Assembly (NCBI RefSeq): GCF_000156655.1
Contig: NZ_DS996841.1
Span: 193,141-246,787, forward strand
Direction of reading: 5' to 3'
Length of the DNA: 53,647 nt
DNA from: Holdemanella biformis DSM 3989
GTDB taxonomy: Bacteria; Bacillota_I; Bacilli_A; Erysipelotrichales; Erysipelotrichaceae
Below the pieces are notes generated by a model that searched no databases, was not told the origin of the DNA, and worked only from the letters and a program-made list of their open reading frames with translations. Made by a program: the position numbers and the translations under genes. Below are positions 1-10,896 of this stretch, piece by piece; within the stretch, counting starts at the first letter, position 1, and each line of letters begins with the position of its first letter.

Positions 1-139
1 CATCTCTTACAAAATTATATATTTCCTTGATTCTTTCAAATTCATCCAATTCCTTCCACTTCTTCTTTTGAATCAATTCTTGAATTGCAGGATTTGAATA
101 ATCAAGCATTTCTGTTTCTCTAAGATACTTATCCATCAT
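1..139 (-). CDS. Transglutaminase-like protein, N-terminal fragment (runs off the window)
   Basis: The frame is open from an ATG at 139 to the left edge of the window, giving 46 residues that begin MMDKYLRETEMLDYSN and continue with a charged KKKWKELDEFERIKEIYNFV segment. This N-terminus resembles small transglutaminase-like proteins of Bacillota, which carry a MLDY...EF.RIK.IYNFVR lead-in before the catalytic Cys-His-Asp core. The core itself lies outside the window, so the assignment rests on memory of the lead-in only. A purine-rich AAGGGATAAGTGA stretch precedes the ATG. It is downstream of, and probably co-transcribed with, the membrane protein at 223-711. Confidence 0.5.
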   Translation of the reverse strand, partial: MMDKYLRETEMLDYSNPAIQELIQKKKWKELDEFERIKEIYNFVRD

Positions 140-222: not shown

Positions 223-711
223 TCAAATTTCACCAAGCAATACCACAATTCCTGCAACTACAAGTGCAACCACCAAATATAGTACAGTAGCCACTCCTCG
301 TTTTATCAACACAGTCTTCCAAGACTTTACATATGGAATTCCTTCCATACCCTCTATATGCCAGATTTTGCTGTGTCCTACCCATAATCTGTCAATCACA
401 ATACCATCAAACCAATTCATGACCACAAGAAATAGGCAGGCTTGAAGATATGCCGTTTTTAAATCCGTAACATGATTCCAAACAGAAATAATCAGGATCA
501 AAGCCACAAATATAATGATACAAAAAGGGATCATGAACCATTTTGACCTTTTCATGACAGTTTTCTTATCGGCAATACCACGTTTTTGTGCTTCCACTAA
601 AAAATCTTTCGGATAAAAATATAAACAGTTACTCCCATCGTTTTTTACTGCACATTTTATTAATAATGCATACAACAGACAATATAAAACATTTTGTAAA
701 AGTAATAACAT
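223..711 (-). CDS. Small integral membrane protein of unknown function
   Basis: About 162 residues with four hydrophobic stretches: one at the N-terminus (LLLLQNVLYCLLYALLI), two central ones (IPFCIIIFVALILIISV and LQACLFLVVMNWF) and one C-terminal (VATVLYLVVALVVAGIVVLL). I do not recognise the family. ATG 711 is preceded by GAAGG; an in-frame TTG at 732 overlaps the stop of the upstream hydrolase (729-731) and is an alternative start. It is the sixth gene of the hydrolase/methyltransferase operon, so it may insert or export whatever that operon modifies, but this is inference only. Confidence 0.6.
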   Translation of the reverse strand: MLLLLQNVLYCLLYALLIKCAVKNDGSNCLYFYPKDFLVEAQKRGIADKKTVMKRSKWFMIPFCIIIFVALILIISVWNHVTDLKTAYLQACLFLVVMNWFDGIVIDRLWVGHSKIWHIEGMEGIPYVKSWKTVLIKRGVATVLYLVVALVVAGIVVLLGEI

Positions 712-728
712 TTTTGCGATACCTTCTT

Positions 729-1493
729 TCAAAATGTCAACTCAGGTAATCGATCTGTCTTAATAATCATTTCTAACATTCTGGCAAATCCATCTGGATA
801 CCGAATTTGATACTCCATATGGTTCAATCCCTCAAAAACTGGAAAATTCTCATATTTATAGGCTTGCATTACTGCATTTCTATATTTAAAATGATCTTCT
901 TTACTACCAAATTCCCAGAATGTATGTTTTTGTAGCTCTTCTGATAATTTTGGAAATGGCTTATCTTCTAAACTATCATCCATCTGTTTTCTCAAATTTG
1001 TATATGACAAATTCTTTCCTGCTTCAATAAAATAAGGCTTAATATTATCATCGTCACACCACATAATTTTCTTCAATGTTTTCCCATTTGTCCAATACAA
1101 ACTTTTCATGGCCACATATAAAAATGGAACCATAATTCTACGTGTTATCTTACCAATCTGTGCAAATTGACCACCATCAAAGAATATATGCTTAACCGGT
1201 ATTTTTGTATCTGTTAGAAATACCATCGCAAGATCTGCACCAATCGAAGATGCTACTACTAGTTCAATCTCTTTGATCCCATGATCACTTAAAAATCGTT
1301 TAATCTGTTGTATCTCATCACTTTTACCTAGATACTTTTGATTTGAACAATAAACAGTAGATGTTGGCATAACACAATAATATTTATCTGACAGTTTTTC
1401 GGCAATTGGCATACTGCTTTCTCCAGTTACACCCATCGCATGAAAAAATAAAATCACAGGATTCAATTCATTTCCAATTGTTTGAAACAACAT
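729..1493 (-). CDS. Alpha/beta hydrolase (first of three in the operon)
   Basis: A 254-residue alpha/beta-hydrolase-fold protein. Early beta strands with a VILFFHAMGVTGESS oxyanion-type loop lead to a degenerate nucleophile elbow VVASSIGADLAM (the usual GxSxG reads ASSIG). An acidic GSKEDHFKYR loop and a C-terminal GLNHMEYQ histidine complete a plausible Ser-Asp-His triad. Start 1493 is chosen because AAGGTGAG sits just upstream; an in-frame ATG at 1550 would overrun into the preceding gene and lacks a site. Substrate unknown. It lies between a SAM methyltransferase and a membrane protein in a tightly packed operon, which suggests esterase, thioesterase or acyltransferase chemistry on a shared product. 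Confidence 0.75.
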   Translation of the reverse strand: MLFQTIGNELNPVILFFHAMGVTGESSMPIAEKLSDKYYCVMPTSTVYCSNQKYLGKSDEIQQIKRFLSDHGIKEIELVVASSIGADLAMVFLTDTKIPVKHIFFDGGQFAQIGKITRRIMVPFLYVAMKSLYWTNGKTLKKIMWCDDDNIKPYFIEAGKNLSYTNLRKQMDDSLEDKPFPKLSEELQKHTFWEFGSKEDHFKYRNAVMQAYKYENFPVFEGLNHMEYQIRYPDGFARMLEMIIKTDRLPELTF

Positions 1494-1515
1494 AATCTCA
1501 CCTTCTATCCATACA

Positions 1516-2169
1516 TTATTTTGTGCAACAAAAATATACCATCGATCCATCTATGTGAAGATCTATTTGTTTGTACATCTCTTTTAGAATATTTCTAAGT
1601 TCTTCCTCCGTTTGAAATGGTGGGGTGAACCATCCTTTCTTAGAAAGAATATGATTCACAAGCCAATCTGTTCTTTTAGATTTACCCCTAATATAAAAAC
1701 ATCCTATAAAGGTACCACCTGGTTTTAAAACTCGCCACGTTTCTTGAAATGCCTTTTTCTTATCTGGAAAAGCATGAAATCCATTCATAGAAACCACAAT
1801 ATCATAGGATTCAGCATTCATTTTTAAATTGGATACATCCCCCTGAATACATTTAATATGTGTATACCCATCAAATCTTTTCTTAGCTTGTTCAAGCATA
1901 TCCATACTGTAATCAAGACAAATAATATGCGCATCTTTTAAAGCTATCCACTTATGTTGGGTAAATACAGCTGTTCCAACTGGAACATCTAGAAGATTAC
2001 CTGAAAAATCATTTGGAATATATGATAATACTTTCTGTGCTATATCATTATCATTAGTACCATTCCAAAATAATTTAATATACAACTTACTGAAAATATT
2101 TCCCTGTGTCAAAACATCATCATAAATATTCTTTGATGATTCATACGCATTTTGTATTTTATCCGCCAT
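1516..2169 (-). CDS. Class I SAM-dependent methyltransferase (Methyltransf_11/UbiE type)
   Basis: A 217-residue class I methyltransferase. Motif I is LLDVPVGTAVFT (a DVPVGTA variant of DxGxGxG), an acidic residue closes strand 2 (ICLDYSMDML), and motif post-I to IV runs IQGDVSNL...YDIVVSMNGFHAFPDK. The motif WRVLKPGGTFIGCFYIRG marks strand 5. ATG 2169 is preferred over in-frame starts at 2223 and nearby because AAGGTGAAG precedes it; it overlaps the stop of the upstream BAAT-like gene by 11 bases. The substrate is unknown; small-molecule or lipid methylation is typical for the family. It is one of two methyltransferases alternating with hydrolases in this operon. Confidence 0.85.
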   Translation of the reverse strand: MADKIQNAYESSKNIYDDVLTQGNIFSKLYIKLFWNGTNDNDIAQKVLSYIPNDFSGNLLDVPVGTAVFTQHKWIALKDAHIICLDYSMDMLEQAKKRFDGYTHIKCIQGDVSNLKMNAESYDIVVSMNGFHAFPDKKKAFQETWRVLKPGGTFIGCFYIRGKSKRTDWLVNHILSKKGWFTPPFQTEEELRNILKEMYKQIDLHIDGSMVYFCCTK

Positions 2170-3094
2170 ATCCAACTTCACCTTTTTTCCATTCTTCAAT
2201 CGCATTCCTAATACGAACATCAATATCTATGCGTGTTTCAAGGCATTCCTTTGGATGTTTTCTTGCGGATTGAAACGCAAATTTCACAAAGCTTGCTGAA
2301 CCAATTGGAAGCATCATCTTTAACATGCTTTCTGGAAAAACAAAATGAGTCCCATATTTATACACAACAGCTTCTAACTTGCATATATGTTCTCGTTCTT
2401 CCATGCGACGAATGTATTTTGCAGCATCCCACAACACATCATCTTCAGCGCCAATCAACAATAGTTTTCCATGAATCTTTTCAATCTTGATTTTTTCTTC
2501 TTCCAAAATCGGATGAACGGCTTCTGAATCATCAAACAACTTTCTAGAATTGATCATATCACCTGTTCGCTTTGTTTCTTGTTCAATCACATGCCAATAT
2601 TGAGGATGTTTATAACAAAATGGCATATATGGAAGCGGTTTTTCTCTATATGAAAATAGTGATTCACCTTCGATCGGCCATTCTTTACAACCATCTTTTT
2701 TACCTTGCATAAAGCCTTGCCAAATAAAATCACTTGGAGTTAAGCCAATTGTCAAAGTGATATCTTCAAAATAAGAAGCTGCCGTAAGTGCTAGTGTTCC
2801 TGTAGTGGATGCACCCACAATTCCAACCTTCTTGTTTCCATGTACTTTTAGCCATCTTATCGCATTCTCTATTCGTTCTAAAGGATAATTATGATGTCCA
2901 TAATCTTTTTTTGCGGGTGACATAGTCATTACATTTAATCCAAGTTTATGTAACCATTTTACAGATGTACAGGCTAAATAATCCTGGGAATCATCACCAA
3001 TCATGGCAATCATCGCACAATCTGAATCCGTTTTGCATTTCCAATAGTCACCATAAAATCCGTCTGTGTGTACTTCAAAATGAATTTTCTTCAT
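2159..3094 (-). CDS. BAAT-C-like alpha/beta hydrolase / acyltransferase
   Basis: A 311-residue alpha/beta hydrolase resembling the C-terminal catalytic domain of acyl-CoA thioesterase / bile-acid-CoA:amino-acid N-acyltransferase (BAAT_C). Visible are the helix NAIRWLKVHGNKKVGIVGAS leading to the nucleophile elbow VGASTTGTLAL (Ser), a mid-strand acid GAEDDVLWD and the histidine YKYGTHFVFPE. The amino-terminal BAAT domain is absent, as in bacterial members. A GGGG-type site lies about 10 bases upstream of ATG 3094. It is separated by only 5 bases from the LCM-type methyltransferase upstream. The family name does not prove bile-acid chemistry; bacterial members are mostly uncharacterised and may act on acyl thioesters or esters. 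Confidence 0.75.
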   Translation of the reverse strand: MKKIHFEVHTDGFYGDYWKCKTDSDCAMIAMIGDDSQDYLACTSVKWLHKLGLNVMTMSPAKKDYGHHNYPLERIENAIRWLKVHGNKKVGIVGASTTGTLALTAASYFEDITLTIGLTPSDFIWQGFMQGKKDGCKEWPIEGESLFSYREKPLPYMPFCYKHPQYWHVIEQETKRTGDMINSRKLFDDSEAVHPILEEEKIKIEKIHGKLLLIGAEDDVLWDAAKYIRRMEEREHICKLEAVVYKYGTHFVFPESMLKMMLPIGSASFVKFAFQSARKHPKECLETRIDIDVRIRNAIEEWKKGEVGYGG

Positions 3095-3099
3095 CCGTA

Positions 3100-3900
3100 T
3101 TAACCCCTATTCTTCAAAACTATAATTTTATTTGAAATATTTCGAACCAATGGAATCCATCCAAACAAATGATAAATAGGATGCAATTCTTTCATACCTT
3201 CAATCAAACTAACTTCCTTTTCAAAAATAAATTCTGGTAAAATCTTTTGTAGTTCATTTCCATTCTTTACACCCCATAAAAATTTAGCATTACTTTGATC
3301 TATCGACTTTTCTTTCATATGCTTTACTACAAAAGGCGACATAGTTTCGACAAGAACAGTTACTTTTTTAAAGGATTTTTCAATAATAGAAAACATCTTC
3401 TGCACTTCTTTTTCGTCTAAATACATAGTTAACCCTTCAATGATCACTAGAATATCTTCTCCATGATACTCAATATCATGGACATAAGAATCATCCATAG
3501 CTGATTTTGCGATTTGATACATTGGCCCTGTTTCAGTAAGAAACTGTTCCCTTATCTTCATAGTTTGAGGCAAGTCAAGATTATACCAACGAAGATATTT
3601 ACCTTTCATTCTGTAACAACGAGTATCCAATCCACATGCAATATTTACTACAACTGCATTTGTATGAACATTTAAATATTGTTCGACCATACGATCCAAT
3701 ACAATCGTTCTTGCGATAACACCACTACTCATAGCACTATCTTTATCAGCTTTAGAAAAATCATAATCTATATTTTCAACAATATGTACGGCAATATCAT
3801 CCTTGATTTTTGCATTTTGACTATTCGTTTCTTTTGCTCTAGCATATAAAGTCTGAAGCATTGTCTCTGAAACACCTGTAATATCTATTTTTGATTTCAT
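3100..3900 (-). CDS. LCM/TcmP-type O-methyltransferase
   Basis: A 266-residue protein of the leucine-carboxyl-methyltransferase superfamily (PPM1/TcmP-like), which methylates carboxylates in small molecules such as polyketide intermediates. Diagnostic are VNIACGLDTRCYRM (the AxGLDxRxYR SAM-binding motif), YNLDLPQTMKIR, and ILVIIEGLTMYLDEKEV (the EGLxxYL signature). The start at 3900 forms an ATGA overlap with the stop of the upstream hydrolase (3897-3900), pointing to translational coupling; a longer frame to 3945 would run into that gene. Together with the neighbouring hydrolases it suggests formation and cleavage of an ester or thioester in one pathway; the substrate cannot be read from sequence. 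Confidence 0.85.
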   Translation of the reverse strand: MKSKIDITGVSETMLQTLYARAKETNSQNAKIKDDIAVHIVENIDYDFSKADKDSAMSSGVIARTIVLDRMVEQYLNVHTNAVVVNIACGLDTRCYRMKGKYLRWYNLDLPQTMKIREQFLTETGPMYQIAKSAMDDSYVHDIEYHGEDILVIIEGLTMYLDEKEVQKMFSIIEKSFKKVTVLVETMSPFVVKHMKEKSIDQSNAKFLWGVKNGNELQKILPEFIFEKEVSLIEGMKELHPIYHLFGWIPLVRNISNKIIVLKNRG

Positions 3901-4673
3901 AATCCAACATCTCCAATTACAACATTTCTTACTTCTTCTATCCACTTGTCAGGATGGCAACAAAACATTTCTTCATGCTGCATATTAAATCTATGAATAT
4001 CTGGATTCTTAAAATATGTATAGTATCTCTTTTCATATTTTTTACCCATTTTTGTCGCATAAAATACGTGAATTTTTGTGTTTGGCACATCCATATTGTG
4101 TTGAACTTTTGTCACTAAATCCGAATAGAACTGATTATAAATACTCTTCTTTGTGATCCAAGAACCACCTAAACCAAACATATCTAAAAATCCATTCACA
4201 AATTTCTTCTTCGAATCATCCATTTGTGCAATCTTTTTCTCCATAAGTTTTGGAAGCGTTCCTGTATGCACCATTTTATACATAATAGGCGTTACTATAG
4301 ATGCCTGAATTGTAGCCATCACCTTTCCAGCCTCATCCATATCACTACTTCCAATAATGCCATGATCCATATGAATTCTTTTTCTTTGAATCAACAAAGA
4401 AACAAAACTGCCTCCAAGTGAACAGCCATAAGCGGCTTTAATTCTTCCGCCATAATGATCTATAATTTCTTGTTCAATCTTTTCACACTCTTCTTCCATC
4501 GAATGAAATTGAGTATTCTCATTTGGATCAAAGCCATCATAAGAAACAACCACCGTATAAAAATATACATGTAATCCTTCTAACACATGATCAAAACTAC
4601 TATATAAGCAACAAGTGCCCGGAAACAAAAAGATGACTGGTTTACTTTGATCTCCACTTTTATAAAACTTCAT
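3897..4673 (-). CDS. Alpha/beta hydrolase, first gene of the hydrolase/methyltransferase operon
   Basis: A 258-residue alpha/beta hydrolase. The N-terminus reads PVIFLFPGTCCLYSSF (oxyanion loop), the nucleophile elbow is AAYGCSLGGSFVS (GxSxGG), an extended cap region follows (residues about 115-190) and the probable catalytic histidine is in MQHEEMFCCHPDKW. The architecture and loop order are similar to the hydrolase at 729-1493, suggesting paralogues specialised for different steps. AAGGG lies 9 bases before ATG 4673. A 16-base inverted repeat (4690-4705) sits just upstream of the ribosome binding site and may regulate the whole operon. Confidence 0.8.
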   Translation of the reverse strand: MKFYKSGDQSKPVIFLFPGTCCLYSSFDHVLEGLHVYFYTVVVSYDGFDPNENTQFHSMEEECEKIEQEIIDHYGGRIKAAYGCSLGGSFVSLLIQRKRIHMDHGIIGSSDMDEAGKVMATIQASIVTPIMYKMVHTGTLPKLMEKKIAQMDDSKKKFVNGFLDMFGLGGSWITKKSIYNQFYSDLVTKVQHNMDVPNTKIHVFYATKMGKKYEKRYYTYFKNPDIHRFNMQHEEMFCCHPDKWIEEVRNVVIGDVGL

Positions 4674-4689
4674 AATTAACCCTTAAAAT

Positions 4690-4705
4690 GTTAGATAAAA
4701 CTAAC
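4690..4705. promoter_or_regulatory. Inverted repeat upstream of the hydrolase/methyltransferase operon (candidate operator)
   Basis: GTTAG-ATAAAA-CTAAC, a 5-base inverted repeat with a 6-base spacer, lies 17-32 bases upstream of the ATG at 4673, just 5' of the AAGGG ribosome binding site. Its position fits a repressor site at or just after the transcription start. No regulator gene is encoded beside it, so any cognate factor would act in trans. Short AT-rich repeats arise by chance, hence the low confidence. Confidence 0.35.
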
Positions 4706-4931: not shown

Positions 4932-6590
4932 TCAAACAATGCTTTTAGAACCATGTTCCACTTTAACTACATAGCACTGTTTCTTATAGAAAGATATTCC
5001 ATAGCCAATTACATTTTCATATTTTTTAAATTTATGTTCTTCAAGATATTTTTGTTCGACAATTTGTCTTGCTCCTTCTTTAGCATCATCAATCAAATCA
5101 TCTTCACTTATTGAATGTTTACACTCAATAAGCACGATTGTTCCTAAGATATTTTCTGGTAAAACACATACATCAAATCTACCATTTCCAGATTCTTTAT
5201 TAGATACTACCTCATAATCATTCAACAATCCTACTAGAAATCCATGATAAAAGGATTCTTGATTATCAAAATAACTAATACTTCTTAATAGTATATCATT
5301 CAACAATAGATTTACTTTTTTTGCATCTCCATCCACAAATTCTTGATACAATTCACCTTTTCTACTTGTTGTATAATCTTCAAAATATGACATGAAGGAT
5401 TGTTTATAGATTTCATAAACCTCCTTATTTGGGATAACCAATTCGTATTGATTTTCTCCCCTATCTTTAATGACCTTTAAATATCCAGTTAGTAATAAAA
5501 AGCTATAAATATTATTGATATTATCCATTTCACGATACGTAAGTTCAGGCTTGATATATTTAATAAGGGATTGACCATTCATTAATAAATCAAACTCCTT
5601 GCGCAATTTTTTATCACCATTTTGAATATACTTAACAACAAGATCATTTCCACTAGTATTTGCCCAAAATGAAATTGGTTTAAAAGACACATCTTGCGTT
5701 ATATTTTTTACATACATGAGTGTACTCCATGGATTATAGATTTCGTTATTGCCAAATTGATATCCATCATACCATTCTTTTACTTCATCCATCTTTTCTG
5801 ATAAATTATAATCCTTTAACAACTGTTTAACTTCCGATTCAGTAAATCCAAAAGATTCACTACTAATATTATTTAAAACAGAATAAGCCGTAAAATTATT
5901 CAATCCAGTAAAAATACTTTCCTTAGAAATACGAAGGCATCCAGTCATAACACCTTTTTCTAAAGCATCATTCGTTTTAAGCGCTGAAGAAAAAACACTT
6001 CTTAAAAACTCAACCATTTCTTCATAATAATTATTTTGATATGCAGCCTGTAAAGGAACATCATATTCATCGATTAAAACAATGACTTTTTGTTGATAAT
6101 AAGCATATAACGCATTTGTTATGACTCTCAATGAAATTTTCAAATCTTCAACACAAGATGAACGATTATGCAATTTATTTAAAATATCTTTAGTTGTATC
6201 CGACAATTGATCTGAAGATAATATTTCTAAGTTTTTATCTAACAATTCATAAATCACATTTGAAAAAGATGAAATTTGCGCATCAAAAGTTAAGCTTTTC
6301 ATTTCCTTTAAAGAAATAAAAATCGTTGGATATTTATTTTGAACCTTTAAAGCATTCTTATTCTTCGAAATATTTAAGCCATCAAATAGATAAGAGTTTT
6401 CCTTTTCTTTGATTGAAAAAAAATAATAAAGCATCGACATATTCAGTGTTTTACCAAATCTTCGAGGTCTTGTATATAAAACAACTTGTTCATTTAATAC
6501 ATCTTCAATGAAATTTGTCTTATCTACATAATACGCACTTTTATCAATCATCATCTTAAAATTTTCAATTCCCGTCGGTAACAATTTCAT
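4932..6590 (-). CDS. AAA-ATPase-like protein with C-terminal PD-(D/E)XK nuclease-type domain
   Basis: A 552-residue protein of the widespread AAA-ATPase_like plus PDDEXK_9 family. The N-terminus has LLPTGIENFKMMID...YYVDKT, then a degenerate Walker A VVLYTRPRRFGKTLNMSML, a Walker B-like KVIVLIDEYDVPLQ, and a C-terminal nuclease-fold region with GRFDVCVLP and IVLIECKHS (D...ExK). Family members are common in multiple copies in gut Bacillota and Bacteroidota and have no established function. ATG 6590 is preferred over an in-frame GTG at 6608 because AAAGGA lies 8 bases upstream of it. It stands alone between terminators, consistent with an independently mobile accessory gene. Confidence 0.85.
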   Translation of the reverse strand: MKLLPTGIENFKMMIDKSAYYVDKTNFIEDVLNEQVVLYTRPRRFGKTLNMSMLYYFFSIKEKENSYLFDGLNISKNKNALKVQNKYPTIFISLKEMKSLTFDAQISSFSNVIYELLDKNLEILSSDQLSDTTKDILNKLHNRSSCVEDLKISLRVITNALYAYYQQKVIVLIDEYDVPLQAAYQNNYYEEMVEFLRSVFSSALKTNDALEKGVMTGCLRISKESIFTGLNNFTAYSVLNNISSESFGFTESEVKQLLKDYNLSEKMDEVKEWYDGYQFGNNEIYNPWSTLMYVKNITQDVSFKPISFWANTSGNDLVVKYIQNGDKKLRKEFDLLMNGQSLIKYIKPELTYREMDNINNIYSFLLLTGYLKVIKDRGENQYELVIPNKEVYEIYKQSFMSYFEDYTTSRKGELYQEFVDGDAKKVNLLLNDILLRSISYFDNQESFYHGFLVGLLNDYEVVSNKESGNGRFDVCVLPENILGTIVLIECKHSISEDDLIDDAKEGARQIVEQKYLEEHKFKKYENVIGYGISFYKKQCYVVKVEHGSKSIV

Positions 6591-6960
6591 TCTATCAATT
6601 CCTTTCACAGTTATTATACTTTATATTATTAACTTTTTCTTCAATTCCTCATAAGATTTTAAAATTCACATAACTAAAAAAAACTTCCTTTATCAGGATA
6701 TCCAATTTTCTAGGGGTCTATGAAATGCAATTATTTTCATTCCTGATTCATTCTCTTTTTTTATATCTGATATAACCGTTTATAATTATTTCGTTATGTT
6801 CATTGCTTTCAACCAGGAGGTATTCCGATTTGTATTTCAGTTTGCTTTAAAAATGGAGAATCCATATTTCAGGACTCCCCATACATCGTACTAATTATGT
6901 GAATTTTTCTTGCTTGCACAAAAATCATTAACTCCAATGGTTTACTATTTTTCTTTATTC
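6591..6960. other. 370-base intergenic region without a gene
   Basis: AT-rich stretch between two minus-strand genes. It contains the terminator of the XRE regulator (6849-6881) and, on the plus strand near 6815, an orphan AGGAGG not followed by a usable open frame. The latter could be a remnant of a lost gene. The promoter of the AAA-ATPase-like gene must lie in its left part, but I cannot point to a convincing -35/-10 pair. Confidence 0.5.
6849..6881 (-). terminator. Terminator of the XRE/zinc-ribbon regulator
   Basis: On the minus strand TGGGGAGTCC (6881-6872) pairs with GGATTCTCCA (6863-6854), ten base pairs including two G-U, with an 8-base loop and a following TTTTTAAA tract. It lies about 80 bases past the stop codon at 6961. 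Confidence 0.65.
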
Positions 6961-8053: not shown

Positions 8054-8780
8054 TTAAACCTTTTTAACCTTAACCAACAACATCATAGGTCTACGCATTT
8101 CATGACACATTCCCGGCATACCCATCATATCTGCCGAAGGCATTGCTTCCTCAATAGCCTCAATTTGAAAACCACATTTTATAAGTGGATTCAATATCTG
8201 CGTTAATGTGTGGTGCTGTTTAATTACTCGTTGACCAAGAAAATTGGTTTCTCTTTCGCCTGTGTAATAGTAATTGTCGATTGGCCAATATTTAGGTTTC
8301 CCATTTTCATCATAAATCCAATCCTCATTAACACCGGCGGTGAAAGTCGGATGTTCAATATTGAATAGGAAATACCCACCTACTTTTATGTGCAATACAC
8401 CTTTTGATAAACATTAGCTAAATTTTCGATATAGTGCAGTACCAGGTTAGAAACAACTAGGTCATAAGTATTTTCAGGATAAATGTATTCTTCAACACCG
8501 CAAACTTTATACTTGATTTTGTCATCAGAGTTATCAGCTACTGCTTTTGCAATCATTTTTTGACTACTATCAATACCAAGAATTTCAACAGCTCCCATTT
8601 GTGCGGCATATTTGCAATGCCAACCGTAACCACATCCTAAATCCAAAACTTTTTTCCCTGTAATTTAGGGAATAACGGTTGCAACTGATGCCACTCTCCA
8701 GCAGCTTTCAGACCATCTTTGCTTCTTCCCATTTCAGCATATGCGGCAAAAAATTCACTATTATCGTAAATATTTCTCAT
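8054..8780 (-). pseudogene. Frameshifted class I SAM methyltransferase
   Basis: An otherwise complete methyltransferase of about 242 codons is split by two single-base losses. The first segment starts at ATG 8780 (MRNIYDNSEFFAAYAEMG...) and shifts at a run of six A (minus strand, 8650-8655) where seven are needed to continue into VLDLGCGYGWHCKYA. The second shift is near 8391-8395, where ...YQKVYCT hits TAA and one missing base would continue into LKVGGYFLFNIEHP. Motif I (DLGCGYG), motif II (ILGIDSS) and motif IV (YDLVVSNLVLHYIEN) are all intact, so decay is recent or the shifts are sequencing errors. AGGT lies 6 bases before the start. The C-terminus (MPSADMMGMPGM...RRPMMLLVKV) is typical of small-molecule methyltransferases. 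Confidence 0.8.
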
Positions 8781-8982: not shown

Positions 8983-10896
8983 TTAATAAAGCTTAGCACC
9001 TGCAGGAATGTTGTCATCAACCATCAATAAATTCAAGCCTTCGTGACCATTTTCTTCATGAACAGCTGAGATCAACATACCTTCAGAATTGATACCCATC
9101 ATTTTTCTTGGTGGTAAGTTTACAATCGCAATTGCAGTCTTTCCAACCAATTCTTCTGGTTCATAATATTCGTGAATTCCGCTTAAAATAACGCGATCTT
9201 TACGTTGACCGTCATCCAAAGTGAACTTTAATAGCTTCTTAGATTTTTCTACAGCTTCACAAGCGAGAACTTTAACAGCACGGAAATCTGACTTACTGAA
9301 TGTTTCAAAATCTACCATATCTGTGAAGATTGGTTCGATTTTTACATTCGAGAAATCAACCTTTACAGGTGCAGATTCCACTGGTTTTTTAACTTGCGCT
9401 TTCTTGTTTGAATCCCCCAAGTTCTTCATGTGAGGGAATAATAATACTTCACGAATTGTTCTTTGATCTGTCAACAACATTACGAAACGATCAATTCCAA
9501 GTCCTACACCACCAGTTGGAGGAAGACCATATTCCAATGCTTCTACATAATCTGTATCTACTTCGTTGGCTTCATCATCACCTAATTCACGAAGTTCTAA
9601 TTGTTTTTCGAAACGTTCTCTTTGATCAATTGGATCATTTAATTCAGAGAATGCGTTCGCATATTCGTGTCCACAAATGAACAATTCATAACGATCCGCA
9701 AATCTAGGATCCTTCTTATTCTTTTTAGCTAATGGAGAAATGGATGTTGGATGACCATATACAAATGTTGGTTGTACAATTGTTTCTTCAACATATTTTT
9801 CGAAGAATAAGTTGATGATGTGTCCAACTGTATTATGGATCTTTTCAACTTCAATATCATGTTCCTCAGCCAATTTCACAGCTTCTTCATAACTCATATC
9901 TTGCCAGAAATCTACACCACAAGCTTCTTTGATCGCATCAACCATGTGAATACGTTTGAAAGGAGCCTTTAATGATAATTGTGTTCCTTGATAAGTAATA
10001 TCTGTAGTACCCAATACTTCATTAGCTACTGAATCAAATAAACCTTCAATCAAGTCCATCATTCCATGTAAATCACTATAGGCAACATACGCTTCAACGG
10101 TTGTAAATTCAGGGTTATGCATCGCATCCATACCTTCATTACGGAATAAACGTCCAATTTCATAAACACCTTCTAAACCACCAACAATCAAACGTTTCAA
10201 TGGCAATTCAGTTGCGATACGCAAATAGAAATCCATATTTAATGTGTTGTGGTGCGTTACGAAAGGTCTAGCACTTGCACCACCTAAGATTGGTTGCATA
10301 ACTGGAGTTTCAACTTCCACTAAACCTTGACCATCCAAATAGTGTTGGATTGCACGAATAATTTTTGGTCTTGTTAGTGCAATATGCTTAGCTTCTGGAT
10401 TCATAATCAAGTCTACATAACGACGACGGAAACGCTCTTCAACATCTGTTAAACCATGGAATTTTTCTGGTAAAGGACGAAGTGATTTTGAAAGATGTGT
10501 ATAATTTTTAGCACGAACAGACAATTGCCCATGATCTGTCTTCATAACAGTACCTTCAATACCTACGATATCTCCAATGTCATTTTTCTTGAAGATTTCA
10601 TATTGATCATCCCCAATTTCATCTTTACGAACATAAATCTGAATTTGACCTTCACGATCCTGGATATTCATAAAACCAGCCTTACCCTGACGACGCTTCG
10701 TCATGATACGACCTGCAATCTTAACAGTTACTTGTAATTCATCTAATTCTTCTTTTGTCTTGTCTTCATAAGATGATTTGATAATACCCGAATTTGAAGT
10801 ACGATCATAACGAGATCCAAATGGATCAATACCCATGTCAATCAAATCTTGCATCTTTTGACGACGAACTTGTTCTTGTTGCGTTAACTTTTCCAT
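8983..10896 (-). CDS. lysS: Lysyl-tRNA synthetase with C-terminal tRNA-binding (Trbp111-like) domain
   Basis: A 637-residue class II lysyl-tRNA synthetase that charges tRNA-Lys. Residues about 55-145 form the anticodon-binding OB fold ([19 protein letters not shown]), the catalytic core has motif 2 [18 protein letters not shown] and motif 3 [14 protein letters not shown]. The typical family length is near 495; here about 135 residues follow, joined by a Lys/Pro/Val linker ([17 protein letters not shown]) and containing [41 protein letters not shown] and [13 protein letters not shown]. That is the EMAP/Trbp111 tRNA-binding fold normally found at the C-terminus of methionyl-tRNA synthetase. GGAGAAAA precedes ATG 10896. 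A T-box leader regulates it. Confidence 0.97.

Follow-up and report, generated by a model that had tools for sequence, protein, structure and literature searches.

What an operon that combines hydrolases with methyltransferases may do for its host is the question raised by one end of a 53,647-nucleotide stretch of the Holdemanella biformis DSM 3989 genome (the window, in what follows, means this whole stretch). Analysis of the open reading frames (ORFs) delineates a minus-strand run of six tightly spaced genes, which encode an alpha/beta hydrolase (H1), an S-adenosylmethionine (SAM) methyltransferase of the LCM/TcmP type (LCM), a BAAT-C protein, a methyltransferase of the Methyltransf_11 family (M11), a second alpha/beta hydrolase (H5) and a four-helix membrane protein (TM6). 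The original prediction, made from the sequence alone, had given this gene set, its order and its place in the window, and had stated that no described system has such a composition; all six ORFs were recovered, with Pfam backing LCM, BAAT_C and Methyltransf_11, and, within the literature searched, no description of such a cluster came up, nor of the operator sequence presented below. The simplest overall reading is that these genes would serve the acquisition of iron, or of another scarce metal, by means of a small metal-binding molecule which they make, tailor or dismantle.

An operator shared with iron genes

By comparing the upstream regions among the nearest relatives of the operon, a palindromic operator, GTTAG-N6-CTAAC (the iron box), was found, which precedes there the genes for H1, LCM, M11, a ZinT-like lipoprotein and ABC1, the first of two ATP-binding cassette (ABC) half-transporters. 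The locus of H. biformis displays an exact box in front of H1 and a second box, with one mismatch, ~27 bp upstream of its own ABC1, which lies past the window edge. Over 82 non-redundant cluster loci (1.25 Mb), 77 exact boxes were counted versus 0-7 copies for each of the other 29 half-site permutations, and all spacings from 0 to 12 except 6 yielded no copy, save one at spacing 10. All 77 boxes are located at most 350 bp upstream of a gene, which in 70 cases is a cluster, metal or transporter gene, and the box was found again in 12 of 15 additional loci. Genome-wide, five Lachnospirales/Oscillospirales genomes contain 7-12 exact boxes each, versus 1-3 for a control pattern. High-GC (guanine plus cytosine) regulon fragments from Faecalibacterium/Gemmiger (L148-L153), with poor gene calls, were left out.

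In H. biformis itself, the genes that follow the box comprise feoA-feoB (TIGR00437 equivalog cut-off reached), accompanied by a divergent protein with a heavy-metal-associated (HMA) domain; a 94-aa protein and a heavy-metal P-type ATPase bearing an HMA_2 domain, preceded by two boxes, a pair which presumably resembles FezA/FezB of the ferrosome; nrdI (TIGR00333 equivalog cut-off reached) together with a DUF3793 gene; and, in addition, pfl and a MacB-type ABC gene. At the sequence level, the operon shares its operator with recognised iron genes of the same genome, and its membership of the regulon is well supported on this basis. One iron locus of this genome (L137:3219-7140, contig G000:C34) groups feoA-feoB, a FeoB-associated Cys-rich protein, the HMA protein and the 94-aa protein/P-type ATPase pair, with three exact boxes. 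DUF3793 genes occur behind an iron box next to nrdI or flavodoxin (L139:3362-3895; L143:2167-2718), which suggests an iron-related role for this family. In Blautia wexlerae, the box similarly precedes the genes of the ZinT-fold lipoprotein and of the ABC pair and, in L143-L146, those for a ZIP transporter, feoAB, DUF3793-flavodoxin and a second cluster, in which genes of the AraC, M11, transglutaminase, ketopantoate-reductase-like and ZIP families adjoin an ABC pair. A number of the genes that carry the box in these two species are classical low-iron genes. Our first candidate for the regulator of the box is a repressor of the DtxR type, because two DtxR-family proteins (PF02742) are encoded in the H. 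biformis genome and regulators of this family at six places in the cluster loci; we also take the half-site to recall the DtxR/IdeR box.

A comparable set of genes answers to iron in Clostridioides difficile, where low iron affects feo, zupT and CD630_05910/05920, with induction of zupT and CD630_05910/05920 (PMC6311696), and where the ferrosome genes are Fur-repressed (PMC12574912). The resemblance concerns the small-protein/P-type-ATPase pair (fezAB), feoAB and ZIP/ZupT; however, the C. difficile regulon is under Fur, whereas here the GTTAG-N6-CTAAC box is used and an enzyme cluster is added.

Metal-related genes are also found around the clusters themselves. A Pfam scan of unlabelled neighbours revealed, among others, ZIP transporters, HMA proteins, P-type ATPases, DUF6110, FeoA/FeoB, FMN reductases and DtxR-family repressors. 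Of the 169 non-cluster genes located within 4 kb of at least three cluster genes, 16 belong to metal families, compared with 6 of the 793 at other places (p 1.2e-8 by Fisher's test, near-duplicate loci being left out; the p value is indicative, the cut-off having been set after inspection). A count based on the FeoB profile was discarded, as this profile caught other GTPases. A lipoprotein family of ~250 aa (a 251-aa protein of relatives, absent from the window) matched nothing by sequence search of the PDB and Pfam; its structural model adopts a predicted ZinT fold, the top eight Foldseek matches in the PDB all being ZinT, YodA or AdcA-ZinT (E 2e-8 to 1e-5). The corresponding gene lies behind an iron box in L017, L021 and L026. 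Pairs of DUF6110 and heavy-metal P-type ATPase genes occur within or beside the cluster in L059, L043, L090, L092 and L077, those of L090 and L092 adjoining LCM and ATC_hydrolase genes. The ZIP and ZinT finds had first pointed to zinc as the only metal; iron was preferred since feoAB, the ferrosome-like genes and nrdI all carry the shared operator.

The operon and its enzymes

The features of the operon are collected in Table 1, start codons having been assigned from gene overlaps and relatives, with correction of earlier starts. H1 and LCM overlap by ATGA, 5 bases separate LCM from BAAT-C, BAAT-C and M11 overlap by 11 bases and 22 bases separate M11 from H5. Past the window edge, the same strand of the genome (G000:C39) continues with the transglutaminase-like gene, an 80-aa membrane protein, a TetR regulator and the two ABC half-transporters.

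Table 1. Operator and genes of the H. biformis operon (window positions) and, in the last line, the ZinT-like lipoprotein gene in the loci of relatives.
Feature	Position	Strand	Evidence or remark
Palindromic operator GTTAG-N6-CTAAC (iron box)	4690..4705	-	Exact match; ends 16 bp 5' of H1 start codon
H1, alpha/beta hydrolase, 258 aa, motif GCSLGG	3897..4673	-	ORF; conserved Ser and His
LCM/TcmP-type SAM methyltransferase, ~266 aa	3100..3900	-	PF04072, 2.7e-16
BAAT-C/ACOT-type serine hydrolase or acyltransferase, 311 aa, triad Ser96-Asp219-His250	2159..3094	-	PF08840, 8.1e-13
M11, class I SAM methyltransferase (Methyltransf_11), ~217 aa	1516..2169	-	PF08241, 1.3e-19
H5, alpha/beta hydrolase, ~254 aa, distant H1 paralogue	729..1493	-	ORF, alignment
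TM6, four-helix membrane protein, family recurrent in clusters	223..711	-	Homologues in ~21 loci
Transglutaminase-like gene, 5' part, ATG at 139, runs beyond window	1..139	-	Blautia wexlerae homologue
ZinT-like lipoprotein	L021:12900-13661; L026:13636-14352; L032:15528-16283; L017:16814-17581		Beside AraC or ABC genes in each

With respect to their families, the LCM protein (60.4 bits, cut-off 22.3), the BAAT-C protein (49.3 bits, cut-off 20.9), in which the catalytic domain is present, and M11 (71.1 bits, cut-off 21.2) are members of PF04072 (leucine carboxyl methyltransferase), PF08840 and PF08241, respectively. In the Pfam and NCBIfam scans, H1 and H5 reached no Pfam cut-off, TM6 likewise gave no convincing family, the LCM protein remained below the cut-off of the SAM methyltransferase subfamily TIGR00027 (63.8 versus 93.55 bits) and M11 below that of the BioC equivalog TIGR02072 (63.8 versus 184.95 bits), no NCBIfam equivalog cut-off being reached by M11. 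The transglutaminase assignment depends on the B. wexlerae homologue (L145:3764-4465), which belongs to Transglut_core (PF01841, 6e-16), the match to it being clear at the N-terminus, over the 46 residues compared.

The enzymes of the operon look active, since their catalytic residues are kept. In an alignment of 36 members of the H1/H5 family, the catalytic Ser is conserved in 97% and the His in 100% of the sequences; the BAAT-C triad is invariant in 27 diverse relatives; and the C-G-L core of the SAM-binding motif VN.xCGLD of LCM, plus many further columns, is invariant in 25 relatives. H1 and H5 are homologous (E 8e-7) and form an old pair, because their mutual identity is only 21%. The AlphaFold2 model of the BAAT-C protein (mean predicted local distance difference test, pLDDT, 92.8) most closely matches the catalytic domain of human ACOT4/ACOT2, with a Z score of 25 that is clear of the next one, 21, so that the protein represents a catalytic domain of the acyl-CoA-thioesterase type; the Foldseek/VIA ranks below ACOT are tied, and such a match says nothing about the substrate. 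BAAT/ACOT enzymes share PF08840 and this closest fold with the BAAT-C protein, which differs from them by a serine nucleophile, an identity of 17% and an N-terminal BAAT/thioesterase domain that was not found by Pfam, ~70 residues preceding BAAT_C.

BioC-BioH likewise pairs a member of Methyltransf_11 with an alpha/beta hydrolase, and BioC is the top NCBIfam match of M11. However, M11 scores far from the BioC cut-off, and the present operon differs by its iron box, its two methyltransferases and its three hydrolases; the masking by a methyl ester that BioC and BioH perform in biotin synthesis may serve as an analogy only.

Directly 5' of the operon, the same strand of the window carries the gene for a 558-aa AAA-ATPase-like protein whose C-terminus is nuclease-like (4932-6608). 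Two overlapping ORFs further on (8054-8646) correspond to a split SAM methyltransferase, probably a frameshifted pseudogene.

A modular cluster in gut and rumen Bacillota

Relatives were sought in one genome per species, over 84,980 species, and the best 80 of 117 places encoding one were used; profiles of the window genes were built and then iterated on these loci to label the neighbours. The families recurring around BAAT-C homologues, in ~85 loci, include Methyltransf_11, LCM, H1/H5-type hydrolases, TM6 and ATC_hydrolase (PF14196), as well as metallo-beta-lactamase-fold and ketopantoate-reductase-like proteins, TetR/AraC regulators, ABC pairs and MATE transporters. At least one partner family occurs in the same directon as BAAT in 56 of 87 loci. 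The hosts are gut and rumen Bacillota, among them Blautia, Roseburia, Coprococcus, Faecalibacterium, Gemmiger, Oscillospiraceae and Erysipelotrichaceae; the co-occurrence, for which the original prediction had proposed a search, is real and extends to distant genera. The conserved order that it would have taken as support for a system does not hold: members are shuffled, lost and added among loci, as exemplified by B. wexlerae (L021), among the nearest relatives in Blautia, with the order M11, H1, LCM, BAAT, H5, AraC, ZinT-like, TetR, ABC, ABC. The hydrolase-methyltransferase set is thus a modular cluster, not a fixed operon, because both order and content are shuffled. The opposite possibility, that the genes exist elsewhere only singly and in an order unique to this strain, disagrees with the distribution of LCM, a nearly single-copy gene (29 copies in 28 BAAT-bearing genomes) located within 10 kb of BAAT in ~18 of 29 cases versus roughly 0.2 expected. 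On the whole, the observation behind the original prediction is confirmed and its interpretation is partly supported; the methyl-ester cycle and the lipid or peptide modification that it suggested may each apply.

The cluster is patchily distributed, being found in 5 of 392 genomes from the phylum of the window, 14 of 344 from the order to which B. wexlerae belongs and 4 of 275 from that of Faecalibacterium. It has probably moved laterally, because the identity to Blautia of BAAT (80-84%) and of the ABC pair (81-82%) is far above that of lysS from the window (59%), which reaches 67% with an Erysipelotrichaceae genome. This lysS gene (8983-10896, 637 aa) carries a fused C-terminal tRNA-binding-type domain and has its nearest relatives in Erysipelotrichaceae genomes. 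A role in anti-phage defence was considered and rejected, PADLOC having returned generic methyltransferase and ABC ATPase-domain matches only, with no system-specific set.

Possible functions of the cluster

The favoured explanation, to which a probability of about 0.62 is given, is that of an enzyme and transport module induced by iron starvation and handling a small metal-related molecule. At low iron, the operator would be vacated by a repressor that depends on metal and most likely belongs to the DtxR family. Expression of the H1-LCM-BAAT-M11-H5-TM6 operon and of the ABC pair close to it would follow, along with that of feoAB, the ferrosome-like genes and nrdI. To judge from their families and conserved catalytic residues, BAAT-C, H1, H5, LCM (of the carboxyl type), M11 and the transglutaminase-like protein may work successively on a single small molecule, in which acyl, ester or amide bonds would be joined or cleaved and groups capped by methylation. 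The type-IV-fold ABC pair would transport this molecule, free or as its metal complex, through the membrane, with TetR, or AraC in relatives, as the putative sensor.

Several points weigh against this explanation. The Pfam scans of recurrent neighbours, which covered part of all neighbours, brought up no enzyme for the assembly of a chelator, such as a nonribosomal peptide synthetase (NRPS), polyketide synthase (PKS), NRPS-independent siderophore (NIS) synthetase or ligase; the absence of NRPS and NIS synthetases among the scanned neighbours would speak against a classical siderophore pathway. We know of no molecule for the cluster, the copy in the window has no directly adjacent zinc or iron gene, and 31 of the 87 BAAT loci are devoid of any partner in the directon. 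The best single-domain PDB matches of ABC1 are YbtPQ (6p6i) and IrtA whereas ABC2 is nearer to Sav1866, so the direction of transport is not fixed by likeness. Finally, the H. biformis genome contains 7 exact boxes versus 8 copies of the control pattern, hence no excess, and it is therefore the position of the boxes, not their number, that is telling in this genome. The yersiniabactin genes (YbtPQ, with the AraC-type YbtA) and IrtAB share with the cluster the combination of iron control, probable in the cluster, and AraC/TetR control beside an exporter-fold ABC pair; they differ by the NRPS/PKS not seen here and by the Sav1866-like ABC2.

Among the alternatives, iron sparing or envelope remodelling survives best, although we consider it unlikely: the enzymes would modify lipids or cofactors at low iron, with no chelator, and the ABC pair would flip or export a modified lipid. 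The presence of the box on nrdI/flavodoxin and pfl fits a replacement of iron-dependent proteins, the BAAT-C protein folds like the acyl-CoA thioesterases, and MsbA is the best NCBIfam model for both ABC1 and ABC2, though far below its cut-off. However, lipid remodelling has no need of the metal transporters, ZinT-fold lipoprotein and DtxR regulators found beside the clusters, and no acyl carrier, ligase or lipid synthase was recurrent among the scanned neighbours.

Detoxification seems less likely still. According to this view, TetR and the ABC pair would form a drug-efflux unit, the hydrolases and methyltransferases would render foreign compounds harmless, for instance antibiotics or plant phenolics, many of the latter being presumably encountered by gut and rumen hosts, and the box would reflect iron-chelating toxicants. 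The NCBIfam model nearest to TetR is indeed that of the efflux repressor MtrR, far below its cut-off (56 versus 280 bits), and MATE genes lie near some clusters, but an operator common to metal genes and feoAB is not expected on drug-resistance operons. A loose gathering of unrelated genes on laterally moving DNA, with no joint pathway, would suit the variable order and content and the patchy, laterally transferred occurrence, but is already disfavoured, and very improbable, in view of the shared operator and of the same families being repeatedly co-directional in distant genera, with LCM so often next to BAAT.

An independent parallel to the metal-related module may exist in the Bacteroidetes, where low iron raises loci of unknown function with a SAM methyltransferase, a carboxyl-methyltransferase and TetR/AcrR plus ABC genes in Porphyromonas gingivalis and Prevotella intermedia (PMC10434189). 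Both these loci and the present cluster combine SAM methyltransferases with a TetR-ABC system, in the former case up under iron starvation; the Bacteroidetes loci belong to another phylum, however, with a carboxyl methyltransferase of the isoprenylcysteine type instead of LCM.

The iron box and the company of metal genes, which the original prediction had not noticed, provide a first functional handle on the cluster, and the operator allows the regulon to be mapped across many genomes. Blautia, Roseburia and Faecalibacterium are major genera of the human gut and, to our knowledge, little is known of their iron acquisition beyond FeoAB. A modular, laterally moving cluster placed under the operator of feoAB is a concrete candidate for a part in the competition for metals in the gut, and a target for metabolite discovery. 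A bolder proposal, put forward tentatively, is that common human gut commensals possess a new class of small molecules for metal acquisition, whose assembly would need neither NRPS nor NIS synthetases and would depend on acyltransferases of the BAAT/ACOT type, on transglutaminase-like and cap-type hydrolases and on methyltransferases, with the genes shuffled among strains and the iron box as the switch. If this were true, each strain would make its own variant of a metal-acquisition molecule.

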